Source: Heliocybe sulcata (lineage: Eukaryota > Basidiomycota > Agaricomycetes > Gloeophyllales > Gloeophyllaceae). Taken from it: 21,194 nucleotides of DNA. This document shows, one piece after another, positions 3,148 through 18,699 of the stretch (position 1 is the stretch's first letter; every line of letters starts with the position of its first letter). The notes beneath the pieces were generated by a model, which was not told the origin of the DNA, did no database searches, and saw only the letters and a program-made list of their open reading frames with translations. The DNA lies in assembly GCA_004369045.1 (NCBI GenBank), contig ML213537.1, positions 1-21,194 of the forward strand, in the 5' to 3' direction. The translations under genes and the position numbers were made by a program.

Positions 3148-4739
3148 ATGCATCTTAATGACATGGGTGAAGATCTGCGGCATACATCAAGTGTAACTCT
3201 CCGATCTTGCTGTGCTCTGCTGCTTGGTTTGATTTGTCAAACGTAGGATACAGCCGCCGAAAAGACGGCCACCTGCGACATCCCACCCTTTCACCAATTC
3301 CGAACGAACTCCTTCTTCTGATCTTCGCGCAATGTCTCTTCCCTGGAGATAAGAGCGACTTTTCGCTGGGATCGCAATTCATGCCGATGGTCATATCCCA
3401 CGTCTGCCGTCGTTGGAGACACTGCGCGTGCTCTGATCCCATGCTATGGCGGCAGCTCGGTATCCATGACCACGTAGAAAAGGTTCCATGGTCATCACGG
3501 CCCGTACCATCCCTTCGAAAGCTGGAGTCTCATAGTGTCTTCTTGACGACCTGCGCCCTACGGGCGGGCTCGTTTCCACTGACGCTTTCCCTGGATATAT
3601 ACTATGAACCACAATCATCCAGTCAGAGAAGCGATCTCCACCGCTGTATCAAGATGTGGAGGCCTATCTTATTGCGATGCAAATCGCTGTCGCTCGGCCT
3701 TCCGGGTACCACGCTGCATGCGCTCTTCCAAATAACGATCGAGCTGCCATTACTTGAGAGCCTGGCGCTTGCCTCTCCCTACGACATCTTGTATCTTCGC
3801 AACATGCGTGCCCCGATGCTCAACATCATATCTGTTCAAGGCTGCCAGCGTAACCTGAAGATACACGGAGTTGATTGGTCCCGTCTTACTAGCCTGACTA
3901 TACAATGGATAGAGCTGGGGTCCGAGATTGCTTTCATCCTGCAAGAGTGCGTAGCTCTGGAGCATTTGGACCTTGTGTTTGAAGGGGTCACGATCGACGG
4001 GAGCACCGTTATATCCCTCCCGAACGTCAAGGACCTCGCCCTACGATTTGGCGATGACGATGTGGAGCTCGTGGACATCTTCCCTTGTTTCTCAGTCCCC
4101 GCACTCAAATGCTTCCGTCTGATAGCTGCTCCAAGCGAGAGGCCGTTGGCTGGCTCGGTGGCCTCTATGCTGACCAGGTCAGGCTGTCATCTGGAGCAGT
4201 TGGAGGTCAACGGCCAGTGCTTCCTTGACGACACTGACAACTCGGACTTTGGCGTGTTGCTCAAAGCTGCTCCATCACTGAAGGTTCTGCATATCGAGGG
4301 CAGCTATTCCCGGGCATCCAAGCCCGTCGATGACTGTCTGCGTTGGTTAATTCATATAAACCACGATACTGGCGAGATCTTTGCTCCCAAGTTGCAAGAC
4401 CTATTCATACAAATGCAAGTCCTCGAAGGCGAAAGCGAATACCCTTGGCCGTCGGACGTACTCGTCTCCGAGATTCTGACCTCAAGGAGGCACATTCCCG
4501 ATGATCCAAAGCACAACGGAACTCTTGAAAGCGCATTGATCGTTGTAGAGGACGATTACTCAGGACGACAATGGCGTTTCTCTTGTACCAAAGGAATTGT
4601 CATGCACTTCTGCGCGCCGCACGTCCTCACTGCGGAAGAGGAAGAACAACAAAGAGCTGAACAATTAGCGTGGACAGAAGAGTTAAAACGTCTGTTAGAA
4701 GAGGACAATGACGAGGGTCGACACAGTTCAGCGATATAA
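3148..4739 (+). CDS. F-box protein with leucine-rich C-terminal region (paralog 1)
   Basis: Predicted substrate-recognition subunit of an SCF-type ubiquitin ligase. The long frame has no ATG before its F-box, so an upstream exon is needed. The best model is exon 1 at 3148-3166 (six codons plus one base), an 80-nt GTGAAG..GTAG intron, and exon 2 at 3247-4739, giving 503 residues. The phases match. The F-box core is at about residues 25-75: PNELLLLIFAQC, then VISHVCRRWRH and a downstream DPMLWRQL. The rest shows irregular leucine-rich segments (for example LTSLTIQWIELG, LEHLDLVFEGV, LKVLHIEGSY) consistent with an LRR-like substrate domain, ending in an acidic, Glu-rich tail. The gene at 15550-16965 is a clear paralog, sharing SML-RSGC-LE-L, LLKAA and IEGSY/IRGSY blocks. 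Proteins of this layout are numerous in Agaricomycetes. The target is unknown, and the first exon is the least certain part. Confidence 0.82.
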
Positions 4740-6936: not shown

Positions 6937-7896
6937 TCAGCGCTGGTGGACGACCCCACCAGGGGAGTAGACCATGCTGCCCTGATACGTTTGCGGCTGG
7001 GGAACGACCGGCAAAGCAGAGGAGCCAGCTAGGGACGTATAGGGCGTGGGATAAACTTGCTGACCATGTTGCTGCCCATAATACCCCGGTTCACGGTGGA
7101 TGATACCCGGTGAGCTGGGAGACCAGCTTGCTTGATCTTGAAAACCCTGCAATGGTGAAAGAGATCCAACAGGAACACTGCCAGGCGGGCGTTGAGTCTG
7201 CTGCTGTTCATGCTGAGGAAAAACAGAAAACACGCTACGACTTGGGCCATAGGAGTCCGAGTACTCTTCAGTGTCGCGTTGACTTGGAATAGGTGGTGTA
7301 GGTGGTCTATAGCCCAACTGAGCCAGACGGGAGGATTGAGCATGCTGGCTGGAACGTTCAGAAACCGAAGAAGAACTGTAGCGACCATCCGAGTGGGTGC
7401 TCTCGCCAGTATCGCTGTAAGAAAGGTCGCCTAGAGCCGGATGATGCGCAGGAGGAAGCACCTGGGTTCGAGACATAACCGCATTATACGGTTTCTTCCG
7501 GCAGCGCTCACAAGGTTCTCCTATTGGGACTGTCTTATTAAAAATGGTGCCTTGCTTGATCTAAAGGAGATGTAAGACAGCGACGTGCAAGGAATACGTC
7601 CGACACACCCTTTTGTGAAAGCACAGTGTATACCGCGGGCGGTGCTGCTGGCACCACTCCTTGTGAGCAGGATGCCCGCTGCAGTAGATATATCCGCACT
7701 GATAGTTCTCGTAACATATACCCCTGTTTTTGATACACTGGTGCGTTAATCAGTCAGCCATAATGCATGTCCATGGTGAAGAGTATCTTACGCCACATAG
7801 CCACTGGACATACGTGCTGGAGGACGAAAGTCTTTCTTAAGAAATGTAGCAACTTGTGGAACCTCGCCAGACAACTCACTTCACTTTTGGACACAT
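6937..7896 (-). CDS. Met-Cys Cys/His (probable zinc-binding) protein with long disordered tail
   Basis: Four exons on the minus strand: 7896-7880 (17 nt), 7816-7792 (25 nt), 7737-7609 and 7560-6937. All introns are GT..AG with matching phases, and the protein is 264 residues. The start MCPKV is followed by YVQWLCG, then C-G-x3-C-x5-H-x3-C-x9-C-x-H (ending TLCFHKR), and CERC in exon 4. That gives enough Cys and His for about two zinc sites. From about residue 85 the protein is low-complexity Ser/Pro/Gln/Tyr sequence with QQQ and YYGQQHGQQ stretches, ending SPGGVVHQR. The tail frame alone opens with an internal ATG at 7476, but the CERC codons lie before that ATG, so the longer spliced model is preferred. 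Paralogs lie at 10774-11171 and 13964-14763. The family resembles small Cys-rich hypothetical proteins of basidiomycetes with no assigned function. Zinc binding is inferred from residue spacing only. Confidence 0.75.
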
Positions 7897-7962
7897 GCAG
7901 GGAGACGACAAGTTGCAGAAAGGAGGAAGGTCTTTTAACTCCTCGTTTCTGCAATCTGTCCC

Positions 7963-7970
7963 ATTATATA
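7963..7970 (-). promoter_or_regulatory. TATA box of the Cys/His gene at 7896
   Basis: On the minus strand the context is GGCTATATAATGGGACAG, about 67-74 nt before the ATG. It closely resembles the site before the paralog at 13964 (CTATATAAAGGGTCAG), which supports a shared promoter layout. Confidence 0.6.
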
Positions 7971-8748
7971 GCCAGCAGGCCATTTCGTGGCGTCGCTGTG
8001 GCGTACAAGAAAGTAGAGCAACAAGGTCGCCGAGGGTGCCACCCACAGGTGTGTGAAAAATATAACCAGCACTAACATGACCTTACTGGCAGCAATGTCC
8101 TCGTCGTTGAGAGCTCTCCGACTGAGTGGAAACCATAAGAGGTGCACATCTGAGACATGTCGGAGAGTGAAGGATGCGAGATCGACGTACCTAAAAGCAC
8201 AACCTTCAACTAAAAGGTTTCTTTTTGTAACCGAATAGCCAAGCATTGTACTCTGGGAGAAATAACTTGTACAATACGACCCCCAGAAAAAACAGTCCCA
8301 CGCCTCGCTGACTAATCAAGCCGCACGTGGTTTGCTCACGTTCGCGAAATGCGAAGTGTGATCATGGACGCGGAAGCAGATTGTCGATCGTCTAAGTCCA
8401 TTATTTATCAGGGTAGATACATTGTCGTACTGGCAGTGTCACTCCAAGAGGAAATGCAATCCTCCCAACACGGACTGAGGTCGCCACTACCGAAAATGGA
8501 AGATAACTCACGTAGCGCCACAAATGTGACCGCGTGCTAACTTCGAGCCACTCGAAGGGTGCGCTGGAATTGTGAAGTTTTCTGTAAGCAAGAATAGAAT
8601 ATAAGATAGAACACAACATAGTACTGTGCCAGTAATTGTCAAAAATCTTATGGTGTAGACGAATCGACATGTGCCCTGACCATACACCCTACCAATAGCG
8701 AGGCTCGACCCGAGAACCATCAGCATGCACGTAATCCGAAACGGGACA
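7971..8748 (-). other. Unresolved minus-strand fragments, some membrane-like
   Basis: No complete gene could be built. On the minus strand, hydrophobic frames occur at about 8511-8726 (segment TITGTVLCCVLSYILFLLT), 8227-8300 (GVGLFFLGVVLYKLF, then EYNAWLFGY) and 7990-8070 (VMLVLVIFFTHLWVAP). They sit in different frames with plausible intron signals between some of them, for example GTGAGT at 8512. They may be exons of an unrecognised membrane protein, decayed coding sequence, or chance. The promoter of the 7896 gene overlaps the end of this stretch. Confidence 0.2.
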
Positions 8749-8751
8749 CAT
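8690..8751 (-). pseudogene. Possible decayed start of another Met-Cys gene
   Basis: From an ATG at 8751 the minus strand reads MCPVSDYVHADGSR and stops after 20 codons. This resembles the start of the gene at 13964 (MCQSLVYHDGSGQ), but there is no intron at the expected place and no following C-G-x3-C block. It could be a relic or coincidence. The same bases weakly resemble pol III A and B boxes, an alternative I consider less convincing. Confidence 0.22.
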
Positions 8752-10682
8752 TATCCGCTACACCACGTCTGCTTATAAGCTTGAGAGCTATAATGTGAAA
8801 GTCACCTCTGTGTTTCGGCTCAAATACACTTGTTACCCCTCAAACCCCTCAATATTGCATCTTTATCTGCTTCCAGTTACTCAAACACATTAGACTAGTG
8901 TACTTGAGCTATGGCTTCATTACCTCTCTGCCAGGTTGCCCACAGTCACTGATCAATATCCTCCCACTAAAAGCGCAGTCAGGGTGGCGTGGGACTGTTT
9001 TTTCTGGGGGTCGTATTGCCCAAGATGGGAGAAATACGCGTGAAACCCGCACAGCGGCTGAGCACTGAAGACCTGAACACGCGTAGGGAGGATGGTCAAG
9101 ACTTGGCCTGAGAGCGCGCCTAGGCATCACAGATATAGTAGAGCCAGAAATCTCACCTGGGCGTTAAACGCGCGCTCGAACAGCGCGAGTATCCGAAATA
9201 TCGTCCATACAAGGCAGGATCGAGCTTTTCATCGCCACGAATACCGAGCTGAAGCCACGTAGAACGTGTAGTAGTTGCACCACATCCCGTAGATATTGTA
9301 TGCATTAGAGCCAGGATCTTCAGGATGTATCTCACAGCAGGATAAGGGGCGCGGATACTGACCGAGTAAACGCCAAACACCCCTCACGTGATAGTCACAG
9401 TGACTGTGACGGTCGTCGCGCGGCCTCGACTGCGCTCTTCGACCGGTACCGCGTCTTGGTTGACCTCTCTGCTGAGCTGTCTGTTCCTGCTATCCGTACT
9501 TCTCTCTCGAATGAGCGCTAATACTGTTTGCATCCAACGACAAGTTACACCGTTGCTTGTTGTTCGCTTTGTCTTTCGGCCGTCGAGCTCCTGCAAGACG
9601 TCGTCCAAGGCGTTGACCTGCACCAACACTGTGTCTCGTTTCTGTGGGTATTAAGCTGAAGAAGGCGACACTTTATGGCTTCCTTTGCAAGATATGGCGC
9701 GTATAACTGGCAGAATCAATGCAGTAATCAAGCAGTTTATATGCGCTCACGGCTACCTTGAACGCACACACGCCGCTCTGCTCCGGCACGCCAGTCGTAA
9801 AGCAGGACGACGGTATACTATAGTCCGCTTGCGATACATTACCAGCGAGACTTGCTGTTATTAGCCCATCTCGCGATTACTGGTCTGTGTCGAGCTCTGC
9901 TGTGTTTGCTTCCAACCACATGCAACTGTGTTTCTTCCCTGGCAATCGGTACGCTGGAAACCATGGCTGGCGATGATTTTAGAAGGTTCTCTCGCGTGGA
10001 TCGTACACCATGCCAGTCTATGGTAAGGAAGCAAGCGATAGTTCTTTGGTAAGTACACGCAACTTGCGCACTGTGGCGTTGTCAGATGAAGGATCTGACA
10101 TTTGACCAGCTTGGTGCACAGTCCGAAGAACGCTGTTAAAGACTAGGACTGCCCTTTTGAGGTTGCTCAGCATGCCTCTCGCAGGACGGATTTGTCCCCG
10201 GGAAGGCCAGTCCTTACGGTGACAACCAGGCCTTGACTCCGTGTTCATTCTTGGCTTTATAGAGCTCATTGCAGTCGGGTTTTGCGCACTGTTCAACAAA
10301 TATTTGCGCCTTAAGATCGCACTGTGCTCCGATGACGCCACGTCGCCTTTATCCCTTGGATACGGGCATATAGAAGAAAGGGCGTGAAGCATGACGACGA
10401 TAGCGAGGCAAGGTAAGATAGTTCATCTCTGTATTATTAGAGTGCTGCGGCTCTGATTACGGTGGCTGGAGCATGTGCAGTTGCCTTTGTCGAGATGTCC
10501 TTCAGCCACAATTTCCATATTTTTTCTAAGCGCTCGTAACCCAGCGTGGCGTCTGTGTTCTCTCCAACAAAGCAATGCACCAATTAACTTCCCTTTCATC
10601 CTCCATGTGCGCGCCACGATTTTCTTCGCCACTTGTTCCATGCTCGCCGTGGCGCCAGGCGAGGACGCCACGAAGTTGAGGG
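8752..10682. other. Long intergenic stretch, no gene recognised
   Basis: About 1.9 kb without a defensible gene. Short frames overlap on both strands and none shows a domain, signal peptide with continuation, or phase-consistent exon chain. Notable items are the E-box and palindrome at 9385-9410 and a short open stretch at 9963-10020 ending at a GTAAGG donor (start MAGDDFRRFSR) with no identifiable downstream exon. Confidence 0.4.
9394..9410. promoter_or_regulatory. Perfect 7+3+7 inverted repeat next to a CACGTG box
   Basis: GTCACAG-TGA-CTGTGAC forms a perfect palindrome, with CACGTG at 9385-9390 just before it. This could be a paired binding site for a dimeric regulator. No adjacent gene was identified, so any function is speculative. 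Confidence 0.35.
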
Positions 10683-10688
10683 TATAAA
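10683..10688 (+). promoter_or_regulatory. TATA box of the Cys/His gene at 10774
   Basis: TATAAA in the context GGGTATAAAGAGGTGAG, 91 nt before the ATG. The spacing is like that of the two paralogous genes. Confidence 0.55.
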
Positions 10689-10773
10689 GAGGTGAGCCTC
10701 GATGACTATTCGTCCCCATCAACCAAACGATTCTACTGCCTCGAAACTCGCCTAGATACCTAGCTATATCAAT

Positions 10774-11171
10774 ATGTGCATACCGAGAAGGTAAGTAAAG
10801 CCGACGTATGACCGAACTCACCGCTGAACTATCGTCCAGTGTATATTGCTACTACACAGTCTGTCGTGTACGATATTTTGCCTTATCTTCTGTTCTGACG
10901 CTGACTGAATTTTATATAGCACACGAAATGGATAAACACATACAACGTGCCATGTGGAGAGCAAGAGTGTAAAGGGAGCACAACGCACTGGATAATATGC
11001 CCTAATCCCGACGCTTGCGTCCATGAACAAGTAGGTGTGATATTGTGACAATCAGAACTAACATACTCATGAAGCTGATAGGTGCTAAAGCCCGACCAAA
11101 GGGACGAACCTGAGATTGACGGGCTCTGTGATGATTGCTTTCGAAGAATGCTCAACGCGGGTCGGCGCTAA
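10774..11171 (+). CDS. Short Met-Cys Cys/His (probable zinc-binding) protein, tailless
   Basis: Four exons: 10774-10790 (17 nt), 10840-10867 (28 nt), 10920-11030 and 11082-11171, with donors GTAAGT, GTACGA and GTAGGT, giving 81 residues. The protein starts MCIPRSVYCYY. The core is C-G-x3-C-x5-H-x3-C-x5-C-x-H (CGEQEC, then H, C, and ACVH), followed by LKPDQRDEPEID and a final CDDC with a basic end. Every core residue is retained at the same spacing as in the genes at 7896 and 13964. It is the minimal version of the family because it stops ten residues after CDDC. No signal peptide is visible, so it is probably intracellular. Function is unknown; a small zinc-binding fold is inferred. The second exon boundary (28 nt, GTACGA donor) is less certain than the others. 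Confidence 0.72.
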
Positions 11172-12095
11172 GAGACGATATTCGCCTACGCTATCCATGT
11201 ATATCCTTTACGTGTGACGACTTCTTGTATTATCTGACAATGTGATATATGTTACAATGTATCACCCTGCATAGCTCGATCATCTTAAGTGAAGTGCAGT
11301 TTGGCCTGTCGTTGGACTGTGCCTGCTTGACAGAGAACAGTATCTGAGGCACTACAATCTTCGCTCAAGCAACTACAGAGAGGTTAATCGAGACGGCTCA
11401 ATGTGGTGTACTGCTTTACCGCGATCGTCGTCGCGGATGGACTGCTAAAGAGGCGGACGAGTGGCGGGGACGCGCCATTTGCACGTGACTCAGTTTATCA
11501 GTCACGCGACGTGGCTGAGCGGGCAATTGCTTTCAACTTCGCAGTGTTAACTCGCCGCTTGCTTACTCTGGGTGCTCGCTGTGACACTCGCTATGCAGAA
11601 TTCTACAGGATGCCTTGCAAGTGGCCCAAAAGGCCTTCGCGTTCAAATATCTGCGAATCTTGCCTTTTTGCTGTCGCTCTGGACGCCACCCAAGGATCTT
11701 GCAGCGGTCGAGCCTGCCATGTAGCATTGCCTTGAGGATAGGTCTTTCGCGAGTACGTCTGATATAGTCTACTTGCAGCTGGCACTTCAGCGCGTGGATG
11801 TGACTTCGAAGCTTCATGCGCACGAGTGAAATCCCTGATAACTGAGAGTCGCGGCGTCCTGACTGTACGAATGCTCCATGCATACTCGGCGAGAGTGCGA
11901 GATGACTTCTTGCCCGCACCGCCTTCAGTGGTCTTCCTTCTTCCAGCAACCAGAAGATGGCTCGCTATGTCTGTTCAGCTTGCTGCGCAGTTTCGCCACA
12001 GCTTCATCGCCTCATCCGCCGGGACTTCTGCCTTCTTCTCGTCATCCGATCAATGTCCCCGTGGCGTCAAGCTGTACACTCACGGAGCGGAGACG
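11172..12095. other. Intergenic, no gene recognised
   Basis: Short overlapping frames on both strands without motifs. It contains an overlapping CACGTG/TGACTCA site at 11482-11492. Confidence 0.4.
11482..11492 (+). promoter_or_regulatory. Overlapping E-box and AP-1/GCN4-type site
   Basis: CACGTGACTCA combines CACGTG (bHLH/Cbf1-type) with TGACTCA (bZIP GCN4/AP-1-type), sharing the central TG. It lies 735 nt before the ATG at 12227. The motif match is exact, but its use is unproven. Confidence 0.35.
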
Positions 12096-12101
12096 TATAA
12101 A
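12096..12101 (+). promoter_or_regulatory. TATA box upstream of the Ser/Pro-rich gene
   Basis: TATAAA in the context GTATAAAGGACAGCACGA, similar to the site before the gene at 13964 (TATAAAGGGTCAGCGCGA). It lies 131 nt before the ATG at 12227. Confidence 0.5.
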
Positions 12102-12226
12102 GGACAGCACGATCTGCTGTATGCCCTTCACACAGCTGTTGCTATCCTTTCTTCTGTTTCTGCTACTGCTACTGTCGAGGCGCTTGTTTTGAATTACTTG
12201 GACTACCACAGGTCGTCTCTGGAGCA

Positions 12227-13054
12227 ATGGACCGTGACTTACCTTATACAGTAAGCCATTTTCACTCCATTCGTCTAGTCTTTGCTGACGCTCTCCAGCC
12301 TCCCGGTATGGGTCGTCGGAGCGGCCAGTCATCAGCCCAAGGACCGCCACCGCTTGTTCGACTGGAACGTCCTCGAGAAGGGGAGCGACATCATCGAACA
12401 TCCACTGGCCATGGGACTAGCGGTATATCTGCGCGAGACTTCGATGCATGGGATGGCGAGGATCATCCGTACGATCCTCGCCAGCATAGGCCACAACCAA
12501 GTCCAAGAAGACCTACTAGCCACACCGGCGAATACTCTGCTTCGTCCACTCGTGCAAGCTTTGGCTCTGGAAATACTCCTGGAAATCTCCCTACCAGCGG
12601 ATCTGGCGGGCGCTCCTCTGCACATGGGTCTTCAAGGTCATCTGCGCGACAGTCTTCTGATCCTTATCCTCCGTCTCGGCCTACTTCTGGACCTGTTCCC
12701 TCGCCTGGCTATGGTACTGAACACGGAGGAAGATCCAGCGGTCCCTCTCGGAATTTTCCGTCCTCTGCTCATGACAACAGTGCTCGATCTTATCCGCCTC
12801 CGCCTCCTCCGTCCGCACATCCACCTCAAGGCCCGCCGCTCGGCGCTCAATATTACAGTACTGGTTGGTCAGCCCCTACCATGGCGCCAGCGGGTGGTAG
12901 TATCCAGTTTCTGCCAGGTCAGGTTCTCAGGAGGCGTTCCGATGTCATGGCCGTGCCTGGAGGTGTGGTCATAGCCGAGCATCTGGTGGTTTCTAGGAGG
13001 AGGACAATACCTAGGCAGCCTCCAGCTGGATATAACTGGCAGCCCCGGCCGTGA
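12227..13054 (+). CDS. Disordered Ser/Pro/Gly-rich protein, tail-like relative of the Cys/His genes
   Basis: Predicted exons are 12227-12250 and 12299-13054, separated by a 48-nt GTAAGC..CCAG intron, giving 259 residues. The intron is a multiple of three and free of stops, so retaining it would give a 275-residue protein instead. The body is low-complexity: Arg/Gly/Ser/Pro-rich with HGSSRSSARQSS, a run of seven prolines near PPPPPPSAHPPQ, and a more ordered C-terminal stretch with SIQFLPGQV, AVPGGVVIAEHLVVS and a basic end. The PGGVV motif and overall composition recall the tail of the protein at 7896-6937, and the promoter context matches its neighbours, but there are no Cys/His motifs. A long open frame offset by one base (12282-12974) is treated as a shadow. 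The function is unknown. Confidence 0.6.
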   Translation: MDRDLPYTVSHFHSIRLVFADALQPPGMGRRSGQSSAQGPPPLVRLERPREGERHHRTSTGHGTSGISARDFDAWDGEDHPYDPRQHRPQPSPRRPTSHTGEYSASSTRASFGSGNTPGNLPTSGSGGRSSAHGSSRSSARQSSDPYPPSRPTSGPVPSPGYGTEHGGRSSGPSRNFPSSAHDNSARSYPPPPPPSAHPPQGPPLGAQYYSTGWSAPTMAPAGGSIQFLPGQVLRRRSDVMAVPGGVVIAEHLVVSRRRTIPRQPPAGYNWQPRP

Positions 13055-13881
13055 ATGGTGGACGCAAGGCTGCTCTGGGTATGAAGCAAGCTCTGTGATC
13101 TTGAACTTTTCTTGGACGCTCTCTCTTCTGTGGCCTACTGCGTGAGTTTGATACTATGCTTTCCCTCCTATGTCGTCCCTTGTCTTGTCTATGTCGTATG
13201 CGCGCCGTCTCTTGCCTCGTTAATGCCGAATTTTGCGAATATATGCCATGTTATGCCGAGATGTCTGACCGACAAAGAGACTTGCTGGACTAGAATACTT
13301 TGGCGACCTTTTTCACGGTGAGAGAGTCCGATGCGTGTGGCACTCGCTCTATATGTATGCGAGTGGAGGCTTACTATTAAATGCCACCAGTTCCATCGTC
13401 CTTGTGCCAGCCCGGTGCGCCATTTATGGCATCACTTGTACGCCTCGAATGGTCAGAAGCATGATTAAGTTCCCTGGCATAACTATCTTGAGCAAAGTGC
13501 CTGGCGGTCATTTATTTAACCACGGAATGCAAGTCCTGCGTTGCTACATTCCTAACCAAGACGGGATCCGTATATAAAGTCGACATATTCCACGTCCACT
13601 CGAGTTTATACCATCTCGCACATATCAGCAGGGCAGTGGAAAGTGGCCTCCGTAGAACCGTCGTGTCCTGCTAGGCCTCTGTGGCAGTTCGTCCGAATGT
13701 GGCACCTACCTCCTCGTCGGACGACGGAGCCACTATCAGAACCGACAATCTGCATTGGTATCAACTTCTTCGTCCGATAATGCCACAGGCGCCTCATTGC
13801 AATGCTTCTCTAGAGGCTTCTAGCCGGCTGTCCCCGGTGTGGCTTGGGCCACCCAGGCACGAGCCACATCCCGTGTAAAGC
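13055..13881. other. Intergenic, no gene recognised
   Basis: It contains the 3' flank of the Ser/Pro-rich gene and the promoter region of the gene at 13964. Open frames are short and featureless. Confidence 0.45.
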
Positions 13882-13889
13882 TATATAAA
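13882..13889 (+). promoter_or_regulatory. TATA box of the Cys/His gene at 13964
   Basis: TATATAAA within CTATATAAAGGGTCAG, 82 nt before the ATG. It is nearly identical to the minus-strand site at 7963-7970. Confidence 0.65.
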
Positions 13890-13963
13890 GGGTCAGCGCG
13901 ACTGCTGATTATTATTCAGGACGCATTTCCTTCCCGCATTCAAAGCGCAGCCTAGTTGTCAAG

Positions 13964-14763
13964 ATGTGCCAATCACTAGTGTAAGTGCTGTGGCATGTTC
14001 TGTCCGTCACATACATTAACATATCTCGCAGGTACCATGATGGCAGTGGTCAAAAAGTATGAAATTCTGCGCCAGCTATTTCCCGCATGCTAATACCTCG
14101 ACCATTTCAGAAGATCACTGTGGACGACTGTGGCTCCGTGACCTGTAAAAGCAGCAGCATTCATGAAATAACGTGCGAGGCATTCAGGAATGGATCGACG
14201 TTCTGTGGACACAGTCGTGTAAGTCAAGTTCAGTTCCCTCTTACCTGATGCTCAGCTATACTTTAGAGTCTCCAATCTCATGGAGTATGGCTGGAAAATT
14301 TCCTTTTCCCGGGGCTATGCCAACAGAGGACGACCGCCATCTCTCTGGACGTCGGCCTTCAGCGTCCGTGCATTCCAATCCTGTCATGGAGGCGCCTGTG
14401 AACTTTCCGCTCGTGCCACCTTCAGTACCCGAAAGGCCGTATCCTCCGGCACGGCTTCCAGGCTCACCTTACACTGGGTGTTTTCTTCCTGCCAACGAGC
14501 ATGATTGTACCCCCCAGCCAAAGACGCGGCGATCCAAGGCGAAAACCTCCCATAGTGGTTCGAAGACTGTCCGTCCCGGTCAACGTGGCGGCATCGGACA
14601 CATCGACGATTCGACTTTACCTGCGCTAGACGTATCTCCCGCTCATGCTTACCCCGGTGGAAGTTCAGGCGGATTGCCCACCATTCCTACTTTACGGGAG
14701 GCGGGGTTGACAATTGACTTGTTCCATGGAAAGCACGCTCGAAATGCTGACGCATCGCCTTAG
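13964..14763 (+). CDS. Met-Cys Cys/His protein with Pro/Ser-rich tail, final CxxC missing
   Basis: Predicted exons are 13964-13980 (17 nt), 14032-14056 (25 nt), 14111-14218 and 14269-14763, giving 214 residues. The start is MCQSLVYHDGSGQ. Exon 3 carries C-G-x3-C-x5-H-x3-C-x9-C-x-H (CGSVTC, IHEITC, TFCGHS) at exactly the spacing of the paralogs. Unlike the genes at 7896 and 10774, no CxxC follows. The tail is Pro/Ser-rich with a basic patch (KTRRSKAK) and ends near GLTIDLFHGKHARNADASP. The last splice site is ambiguous: the usual AG at 14265-14266 would give a short tail ending near 14403, whereas the AG at 14267-14268 keeps the long low-complexity frame. I chose the latter on composition. The first three exons are well supported, the tail less so. 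Confidence 0.65.
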
Positions 14764-15549: not shown

Positions 15550-16965
15550 ATGAACATCGTAACTCCGGCAGAGGTGATGCACCGTCCTCTATCATTGAAA
15601 GTGGCTATAGCTGACTGGCAATGAGGATAGACACATGCAAGGAATCACAACGCAGCATCAGTCCACCGTCTTCCACACGAGATGCTGTCTATGATAATGG
15701 TGGACGTTGTTGATACATACGGAGTGCGGTTCCTTGGTCGCTGCTTCACGCCTTTAACTCTTTCCCAAGTGTGTCAGCGCTGGCGACATGTCGCACTCGA
15801 GACACCGCAGATCTGGAGGGCTGTGTATATTGTGCAAGCCGCTCCCTATATCAGGGCTTCCACTCCTGGTGTTACGAGGCTGCAGGCACAGGCAGCGTTC
15901 ATGGATACCTGTGTTGCCCGTGCAGGAGGTCTACCTTTGGACCTCTTCTTCTCCATCGACTGCGTATCGGACGATGTCCCCGAGCTCCTGCCAGCTTGGC
16001 GCCGTTACATCACTCGTTGCGAGTCATTATGTCTCTGCTTCACAAGAGAGGTCTGGGACGCCTTCTTTGACACGATCGTCAGTGGACCGATCCTCAAGGA
16101 ATTGGCAATCAGCGGAGCGAGAACATCGGACCCACTGCCACTCCAAAATCTGGTGATGCCGAGGCTCCAATCCCTAGCCTTGGACGCCAGCGGGCAGGAG
16201 GTAATCTTCACTGGTCTCCCTGAAGGCGTCAACTGGTCACAAATCATAAATCTCTGCCTGGAAGACGTGGAGTTCGGTCACTCATTGGCGACTGTCCTGA
16301 ACCAATGCACCACCGTGAAGTCTCTAAGGCTTTGCATTGAAGAATTTAGAGTGGAGGAGGTCTGTGACATAACGTTGGCGTGTCTGGAAGAGTTCACGTG
16401 TTTGATCAGGGGGTTGCGGAGGGAGAATCATATCCAATTAGTTCTCCCGAGCTTCGACCTTCCTCGGCTACGGTCATTGTCCGTCGAAGAGGAATACTCG
16501 GACATCCCAATTACGGAGTCTGTGGTATCCATGCTGAAGCGATCAGGGTGTCGGCTGGAGACTCTCAAGTTAGAGGGCACCGGTCTCTTGGAAAGTGAAG
16601 AACACTTCGATGAATTGCTCAAAGCCGCGTCTGGTTTGTCCTCCCTCGAGATTCGTGGTTCCTATCGCCTATCAAGGAGCATGGACAATATCTTACGCTG
16701 CCTGACTCGACCAGTCGATGAAGATTCTGGCAGGTATCCTGCACCACAACTGGAGTGGCTGGTTCTTGTGACGACAGTGAACGATACGGAAAGCTTTCCA
16801 TCTGACAGCTCCGTCCGCGAGGTTCTTAATATGAGGCGCCTCGCGGATGCGCCTGTCATGCTCCGCAATGCTAACATCGTCGCCCACGGCCCCAACAAGA
16901 GATGGCAGTGGGATCTTTTCGATGGAGGTGATATTACTGGGCGGTTGGCCGATGAATGGGTCTAG
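15550..16965 (+). CDS. F-box protein with leucine-rich C-terminal region (paralog 2)
   Basis: Predicted SCF ubiquitin-ligase adaptor. The first ATG of the long frame (15682) lies inside the F-box: codons just before it read SVHRLPHE, the usual start of this domain, so the true start is upstream. One in-phase solution is exon 1 at 15550-15558 (Met-Asn-Ile), an intron at 15559-15630 with a CTGAC branch site, and exon 2 at 15631-16965, about 447 residues. The F-box spans about residues 13-60 (VHRLPHEMLSMIM, then LSQVCQRWRHVAL and TPQIWRAV). Leucine-rich segments follow to the end (for example LKELAISG, LRSLSVEEE, LSSLEIRGSY). It aligns along its length with the F-box protein at 3148-4739, for example SMLKRSGCRLETLKLEG against SMLTRSGCHLEQLEVNG. 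It is shorter and lacks the acidic C-terminal tail. The coding exon is secure; the tiny first exon is tentative. Confidence 0.8.
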
Positions 16966-17302: not shown

Positions 17303-18699
17303 TCAGTCGTCGCCGATCTTGGGAGCGAGATAATAGCGTATGTGGCCCTGCCCGAACTCGTATGACACCTGCATCAAGCAAAGGGGCGACCGTGGTCAGC
17401 AATGGAAAGGGAAGAAAGAGCAGGAACAGAGAGGGCACGCACGAGGAGTGGCACATCATTGCTCATCATCAGCTGGACCTTGTCCGCCAGCGACGAGCTT
17501 TTCGAAAAGTTGACGAGGTACTTGAGGGAGAACGTCAGAGTAACGTGCTGGTTCATCTCAATGCGCACGGCGTTAGGCGGATCGTCATCCAGCGAGCGCT
17601 TCGCCTTCTTCGAGGCCTTGCCGTTCTACATCCAACCAAACCATCATATCAGCGGGCTGACGGAGGAAGGGCATGGAGAAGAAGAGAGACAGACCTTCGC
17701 GGGCGCCTTCTTTTTCCGCTTCTTACTGTCGCTATCCTCCTCTTCCTCCTCGTCTTCATTGTTATACTCCTCTTCTTCCTCCCCATCGCCATTCATCTCC
17801 ACATCCCCATCCTCGCCACCGTCCTCCCTCTTTACCTTCTCCTTCTTTACCTTCTTCTTACTGCCCCCTTCATCATCCTCATCATCGTCCCCTTCCTCTG
17901 CATCACTCTCCTCCTTTGCATCCTTCTCCGGCTTAATCTTACTCCCGCTCGCGCCCCCGGACCCAGAAATCCCCTCGCTCTGCTTCAAAAGCACACTCCC
18001 ATTCGCCGCCTCACCGTCGCTGGCGAACCTTATGCCCTCCTTCGACACCTCGATCCGCACAGATTCGCCGAGCTGCGACAGGTCGCGCACGATCCTCGAG
18101 AACTCCGACGCGGGCATGGTGACGCGCGCGTCGTACTCCGTGTCCGGAATCCCAAGCTGGTCCGAGTCAATATCCATAAGCTTCATATCATACTCCGCGA
18201 TTCTGTCTGCGCCTGCCCGCGTCTTGTTAGAAATCGCTCGCGGGCGCTAAATACAACAGAAAGACAACACGCACTCCGCGCTTCGTACGTCAAGTTCAGC
18301 ACGTCCCCGTCGTCGCTCGCCTTGAGCGTGCACATATCGTCATCCTTCGCGCACTTCAGCACCTTCGTCAACGAGTTGATGTTCACTCCGAGCGGCATCG
18401 GCCTGTCGCATCTGTACCTCTTGAACCCTGTGCTGTCGAGCTTTACCGCGACGAGCGCGACATGCGAGTTGTCCATTGCTTGCAAGTTCTGTATAATGCA
18501 TCAGCAGCTGCTCTACTAAGAGCCAAGTCCGCGCCACGCACGATGCCCTCCTCGTTACACTCAAAGTTCGCGTCAGTGACGAGTTCTTTCACCGCTGCGC
18601 CCTCATTATCAGTGCTGCCGTCAGAGCCCCGAGCCAACTCTACGCACCGTCAAGTAAACGCTTGAGAATCGCAGCCTCGTTAAGCTTGGCTTCGAGCAT
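17303..18699 (-). CDS. Proliferating cell nuclear antigen (sliding clamp) with large charged insertion
   Basis: Homotrimeric DNA clamp that tethers polymerase delta and repair factors at replication forks in the nucleus. Six exons on the minus strand join in phase: 18699-18648, 18594-18542, 18488-18275, 18212-17695, 17625-17443 and 17368-17303, giving 361 residues against about 260 for typical PCNA. Family landmarks appear in order: MLEAKL start, [33 protein letters not shown], the interdomain connector around [38 protein letters not shown], and the C-terminal [17 protein letters not shown]. Between LLKQSEG (about residue 187) and VRIEMNQ (about 299) sits roughly 100 extra residues of alternating Glu/Asp and Lys runs, with [11 protein letters not shown] and KKRKKK patches resembling nuclear localisation signals. 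An intron splits this insertion (after residue 279). All core elements look intact, so a working clamp is expected. It is the only housekeeping gene in the window. Confidence 0.96.

Follow-up and report, generated by a model that had tools for sequence, protein, structure and literature searches.

Within the first 21,194 nucleotides (nt) of contig ML213537.1 of the basidiomycete Heliocybe sulcata (assembly GCA_004369045.1; this whole stretch is referred to as the window), three genes named here A, B and C encode proteins that begin with Met-Cys and share a spaced set of cysteines and histidines. The window is the start of a contig of 177 kb (C35) in a genome of 31.6 Mb in 51 contigs. On balance, we consider A, B and C to be paralogs in a dispersed family of at least nine genes, whose products would be small intracellular adaptors stapled by zinc. 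The motif, its spacing, the gene plan common to the three, and the profile match that ties B and, weakly, A to other members in the genome were observed directly. Judged from their sequences, the three genes are most likely diverged paralogs.

Gene A is located on the minus strand, and genes B and C on the plus strand, with cores at 7698-7615, 10953-11024 and 14129-14212, respectively. All three follow the pattern C-G-x3-C-x5-H-x3-C-x(5-9)-C-x-H. Scanning the window in six frames, with 4-12 residues permitted before C-x-H, disclosed three occurrences of the full motif, compared with none in 600 dinucleotide-preserving shuffles. The shorter form C-x4-C-x5-H-x3-C likewise occurred three times, whereas dinucleotide shuffles contained 0.05 on average. 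Of three motif variants, none was detected in 200 kb of the same genome outside the window, sampled as 20 pieces of 10 kb, half of them (10) on the same contig as the window. Three motifs in 21 kb, as opposed to none in shuffles and in genome stretches, thus indicate a true cluster. A final CxxC is present as CERC in A and as CDDC in B, and is missing in C. An earlier note on this DNA had reported three MC genes with this motif and a final CxxC in two of them; the cores are indeed located where it placed them, and the motif is far above chance.

The predicted organization is the same in all three genes and comprises a first coding exon of 17 nt, a microexon, a core exon and a tail exon, with phases 2-0-0 and introns of 48-63 nt (Table 1). 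The first coding exon is built of ATGTGY followed by 11 nt, and ends in phase 2. The microexon, 25 nt long in A and C and about 19 nt in B, ends in phase 0, as does the core exon, which terminates two residues past the His of C-x-H. The signature ATGTGY-N11-GTRNG is positioned 165-198 nt upstream of each core, compared with two occurrences in 400,000 control strand-bases; one additional copy in the window, at 10941 on the minus strand, is probably there by chance. The weakest exon call is exon 2 of B, for which a 25-nt alternative needs a non-canonical donor. In C, an alternative acceptor 2 nt upstream of exon 4 would lead to a short tail with the end at 14401. The predicted B protein is 78 amino acids long. 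Residues S, P, Q, G, Y and T make up 63% of the A tail (178 amino acids counted) and 45% of the C tail. Sharing of this exon plan makes descent from one ancestor much likelier than convergence. The four-exon models fit the earlier description of A, B and C as multi-exon genes, none of them visible as a single open reading frame, and the start and end coordinates proposed for all three agree with the spliced models. The accompanying statement that likeness is confined to the metal geometry needs correction, because the trio also has the common four-exon plan.

Genome searches with A, B or C as single queries matched only the queries themselves, and a trio consensus query matched only the trio. 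Further members were found with queries modelled on an Agaricomycete protein type, and with one protein so found. The first of these queries matched C3:733700 (contig and position; E value 1.4e-7), C3:779582 (0.013) and C2:442355 (0.12), the second C2:442343 (1.8e-7), the third C8:694094 (0.005), and the last C36:51610 (0.006). The protein of the C8:694094 gene, used as a query, matched C8:1080326 (9e-4). In this way, six more genes (L027, L028, L029, L047, L049 and L050) were obtained on contigs C2, C3 (two), C8 (two) and C36, and the family count of nine, including the trio, is a lower bound. All six carry MC, C-[G/A]-H, C-x4-C-x5-H and a final CxxC in predicted spliced proteins of 73-82 amino acids, and their in-frame splice models contain GT-AG introns except for one GC donor in L029. 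The segment from MC to C-[G/A]-H lies outside the first-matched stretch in five of the six genes, and the final CxxC in all of them. This segment is open, without any need to choose splice sites, in L027, L047, L049 and L050; in the last three it is both open and outside the matched stretch. Two weak matches were not counted as members: L040 (C4:1580764, E 0.034), which has a CxxC-like stretch and no core, and C7:1291769 (E 0.12). The trio thus most likely belongs to a family, as had been supposed in the earlier note, which named a profile search empty of further members as evidence to the contrary; six were found, with the queries described above.

Comparison of all nine genes reveals both common and group-specific features. 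Cys at position 2 and the C-x4-C-x5-H core are found in every gene, and H-x3-C in seven of nine. Exact conservation of spacing, as claimed in the earlier note, is therefore a feature of the trio but not of the wider family. The segment C-[G/A]-[H/C] precedes the core in all six other members and in A (as CGC), and is absent from B in its 19-nt form and from C. The final CxxC is shared by the six others, A and B, and not by C. The C-x-H motif is present in all of the trio and in L049, there perhaps by chance, as a combination of the last core Cys and a nearby His. The intron after the core is in phase 0 in the trio and in phase 2 in all six others; C-x-H and the phase-0 intron behind it set the trio apart. 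The 17-nt phase-2 first exon is found in A, B, C, L028 and L029, and no intron exists at that place in L027, L047, L049 and L050, so this exon is a trait of part of the family (5/9), not of the whole. In addition, the EPCERC segment that precedes the A tail also appears near the end of L047.

We have also addressed the relation between the trio and the six other members by means of profiles. A profile of the six, without the trio, was compared with 3,003 sequences, namely the spliced proteins of A, B (19-nt form) and C and, for each of them, 1,000 shuffles; the models and the profile were cut by script from the DNA. B was ranked first (E 8.5e-7) and A second (E 0.011), followed by a shuffle at 0.023. 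When the same profile was applied to 674 six-frame segments of the window, the B core exon came first (0.0028) and the C core segment second (0.016), and the best E value among 6,093 control segments was 0.39. An earlier profile built of L027-L029 and applied to 3,003 sequences gave 4.5e-6 for B (25-nt form), 2.2 for C and 190 for A. An earlier six-member profile with approximate linkers in L047, L049 and L050 gave 7.1e-9 for B (25-nt form), 0.03 for A, and rank 9 for C. A core-only profile on the window placed B first (0.0085) and C third (0.097). Selection on metal geometry alone, as suggested in the earlier note, is thus not needed to account for the trio, since common descent is seen in the exon plan and in the profile of six (for B, and more weakly for A). 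The trio would have arisen by local duplication followed by strong divergence.

Table 1. Predicted exons of genes A, B and C; positions are those of the window.
Gene	Exon	Position	Strand	Description
A	1	7880..7896	-	17 nt, MCPKV + 2 nt, donor gtgagt, phase 2
A	2	7792..7816	-	25-nt microexon, ends WLCG, phase 0; lines up with C-G-H in members of the family
A	3	7609..7737	-	Cys/His core CGYIYCSGHPAHKEWCQQHRPRYTLCFH, phase 0
A	4	6937..7560	-	EPCERC, then Ser/Pro/Gln-rich tail
B	1	10774..10790	+	17 nt, donor gtaagt, phase 2
B	2	10840..10858	+	Probable 19-nt microexon, weak donor gtctgt; uncertain
B	3	10920..11030	+	Cys/His core CGEQECKGSTTHWIICPNPDACVH
B	4	11082..11171	+	Final CDDC and stop
C	1	13964..13980	+	17 nt, donor gtaagt, phase 2
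C	2	14032..14056	+	25-nt microexon, without C-G-H
C	3	14111..14218	+	Cys/His core CGSVTCKSSSIHEITCEAFRNGSTFCGH
C	4	14269..14763	+	Long tail without CxxC

Cysteines and histidines at fixed spacing in an otherwise free sequence are the usual mark of structural zinc. Metal binding, proposed already in the earlier note, is the best explanation of the Cys/His set of the family, as predicted from sequence. Structural zinc, instead of a hydrophobic core, would hold the fold. In the proposed arrangement, the central C-x4-C-x5-H(-x3-C), together with the following Cys or C-x-H, would form the inner metal site or sites, and a further one probably consists of C-[G/A]-H and the final CxxC. The latter pairing is suggested because C is devoid of both, which is a single case. 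Cys2 is probably also a metal ligand. The highest N-terminal hydropathy over eight residues is 0.45-1.59 in the trio and five other members, compared with 2.96 in the AA9 secreted control in the same window. As the N-termini of the trio do not contain a strongly hydrophobic stretch, their cysteines are expected to be reduced and available for metal binding, consistent with an intracellular location. Each protein would most likely be a compact adaptor whose rapidly evolving surface binds a partner, either a protein or a nucleic acid, and A and C would carry an added, disordered-looking tail. More tentatively, and with somewhat less than even confidence, we suggest that the family is spread through mushroom-forming fungi, with the Cys2 ligand and, in part, the 17-nt start exon, and that the locus studied here swaps the last ligands (C-x-H) and adds disordered tails.

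Several observations weigh against a zinc-stapled family that includes all of the trio. The core was already part of the queries that led to the six further members and is therefore not independent evidence in their matches, and the splice sites of these members were picked by hand, save in the open stretches. Gene A is barely above the best shuffle (13.7 vs 12.6 bits), and its core exon, taken by itself, comes no higher than 151st among the 674 segments of the window (E 35). What ties A to the family is therefore its complete spliced protein, together with the spacing and the exon plan. The whole C protein is within the shuffles (rank 22 of 3,003, E 1), and its membership accordingly depends on spacing and exon plan. 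The core-only profile put an unrelated segment (-19828, E 0.075) between B and C, and gave an E value of 0.1 for the best control segment. With regard to the fold and metal sites, the core fold predicted from three sequences has a mean pLDDT (predicted local distance difference test score) of 53.4, too low to use, and the 19-nt form of B has CxxC but no C-G-H, a combination at odds with the proposed site pairing. Finally, L028 is rather hydrophobic near the N-terminus (hydropathy 2.42), owing to VVLL after CGH.

The score of C at shuffle level, and the absence of both C-G-H and CxxC from it, would also be expected if C, and perhaps A, were decaying paralogs, relics without function. We consider this unlikely, since in A and C the exons are open, the splice sites are GT-AG and the set of inner ligands is intact. 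Equally unlikely is the possibility that the proteins are metal buffers, in which zinc or copper would be stored in a metallothionein-like manner and not used structurally. High Cys/His content and the small size of B are in agreement with it, as are TATA-type motifs at -140 to -50, such as inducible genes would have, which are found in five of nine genes compared with 6 of 335 ATGTG sites used as controls; the fixed spacing, which includes His, and the long tails in A and C speak against such a role. Small Cys-rich secreted proteins are common in fungi, and members of the family are small, Cys-rich, fast-evolving and clustered, so that secreted, disulphide-bonded proteins of antifungal or effector-like type could be envisaged, the hydrophobic segment of L028 being in line with this. 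The conserved His and the low hydropathy of the trio and the other five relative to the AA9 control make it slightly less likely still. Recognition of the invariant Met-Cys as an oxygen-sensitive degradation signal (Cys N-degron), for which plant ERF-VII, VRN2 and ZPR2 are precedents (PMC11371169), would suit the presence of MC in nine of nine genes, in L047, L049 and L050 independently of the matched stretch and of splice-site choice, but is highly improbable because, according to a review (PMC11773813), fungal phyla other than Chytridiomycota lack the necessary N-terminal cysteine dioxygenases almost completely, and because a role as zinc ligand would account for Cys2 equally well.

The cluster of A, B and C is accompanied by several other features. 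Between A and B, an element of 759 bp (8266-9024) with 48-nt terminal inverted repeats (92% complementary) resembles a non-autonomous DNA transposon; no second copy was found in the other genome stretches examined. Gene D (12227-13054, plus strand), located between B and C, is Ser/Pro/Gly-rich, with a putative first exon of eight residues and no Pfam match. Its alignment with the A tail, made to examine gene D as a possible headless relative of A, scores 90, compared with a shuffle mean of 56, and one of 500 shuffles was as high, but both sequences are of low complexity. The C tail has no likeness to gene D or to the A tail (264/500 and 288/500 shuffles, respectively). The cluster is flanked by two F-box-like genes in the same orientation (3171-4739 and 15631-16965, plus strand), the first just below the Pfam cut-off, with the stretch LLKAA..L..L.I.GSY in common. 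An exon of an AA9 lytic polysaccharide monooxygenase is present at 1250-1690 on the plus strand (E 1.7e-27). The PCNA gene at 17644-18500 on the minus strand has PCNA_N and PCNA_C matches; the match to the C-terminal domain breaks off at position 63 of the 128-position profile, and the open frame continues there with an acidic, Lys-rich region of about 90 residues, either an insertion in the protein or an intron that was not recognised.

Database comparisons of all nine proteins gave nothing above the cut-off in Pfam or in NCBIfam, the latter scanned with the A and C tails shortened. Below the cut-off, Pfam matches were zf-C3HC4_3, DUF4980 and DUF6485 for L028 and rve for L049, and two NCBIfam models were indicated, both for L028. 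The PDB sequence search provided no convincing match, with best E values of 0.79 for A (head only), 0.59 for B, and 0.081 for the profile of six. PHROGs, searched with L029 and B only, gave one weak match (B residues 55-69, E 0.028), and no relative was found in a viral-contig scan with L029. The family was not found in a literature search that included five motif spellings, although the spacing can be printed in many other ways. The undescribed role assigned to these proteins in the earlier note is thus a fair claim. Because the family has no Pfam or NCBIfam match and its genes have very short exons, gene callers can readily overlook it; knowledge of the exon plan and the ligand comparison suffices to look for it elsewhere. 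B, as a small single-module member, is a good subject for examining metal binding and structure directly.

While a small zinc-type protein is a known kind of protein, the family described here is without a match in the libraries searched. One likeness is to the RING finger model zf-C3HC4_3, matched weakly by L028 (E 0.019, 15.2 bits vs the cut-off of 27), but A, B and C have no Pfam match, and none of the nine proteins reaches the cut-off. The order C-C-H-C in a short segment, typical of the CCHC zinc knuckle, is also seen in the core of the trio. However, the zinc knuckle is spaced C-x2-C-x4-H-x4-C and the trio C-x4-C-x5-H-x3-C, the latter with further conserved ligands outside the core, and no Pfam match was obtained for A, B or C. 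The third likeness is to Agaricomycete hypothetical proteins of the form MC...CGH...CxxxxC..S..HxxxC...C...TCWQY...CPxC, which are presumably widespread. Such a wide occurrence would speak against the narrow lineage proposed in the earlier note, given that the first query of this form found the family at E 1.4e-7. Queries modelled on this form, and one protein found with them, retrieve the six genes having MC, C-[G/A]-H, C-x4-C-x5-H and the final CxxC in common, whereas the trio differs from it in having C-x-H, the phase-0 intron behind the core and, in A and C, long tails.

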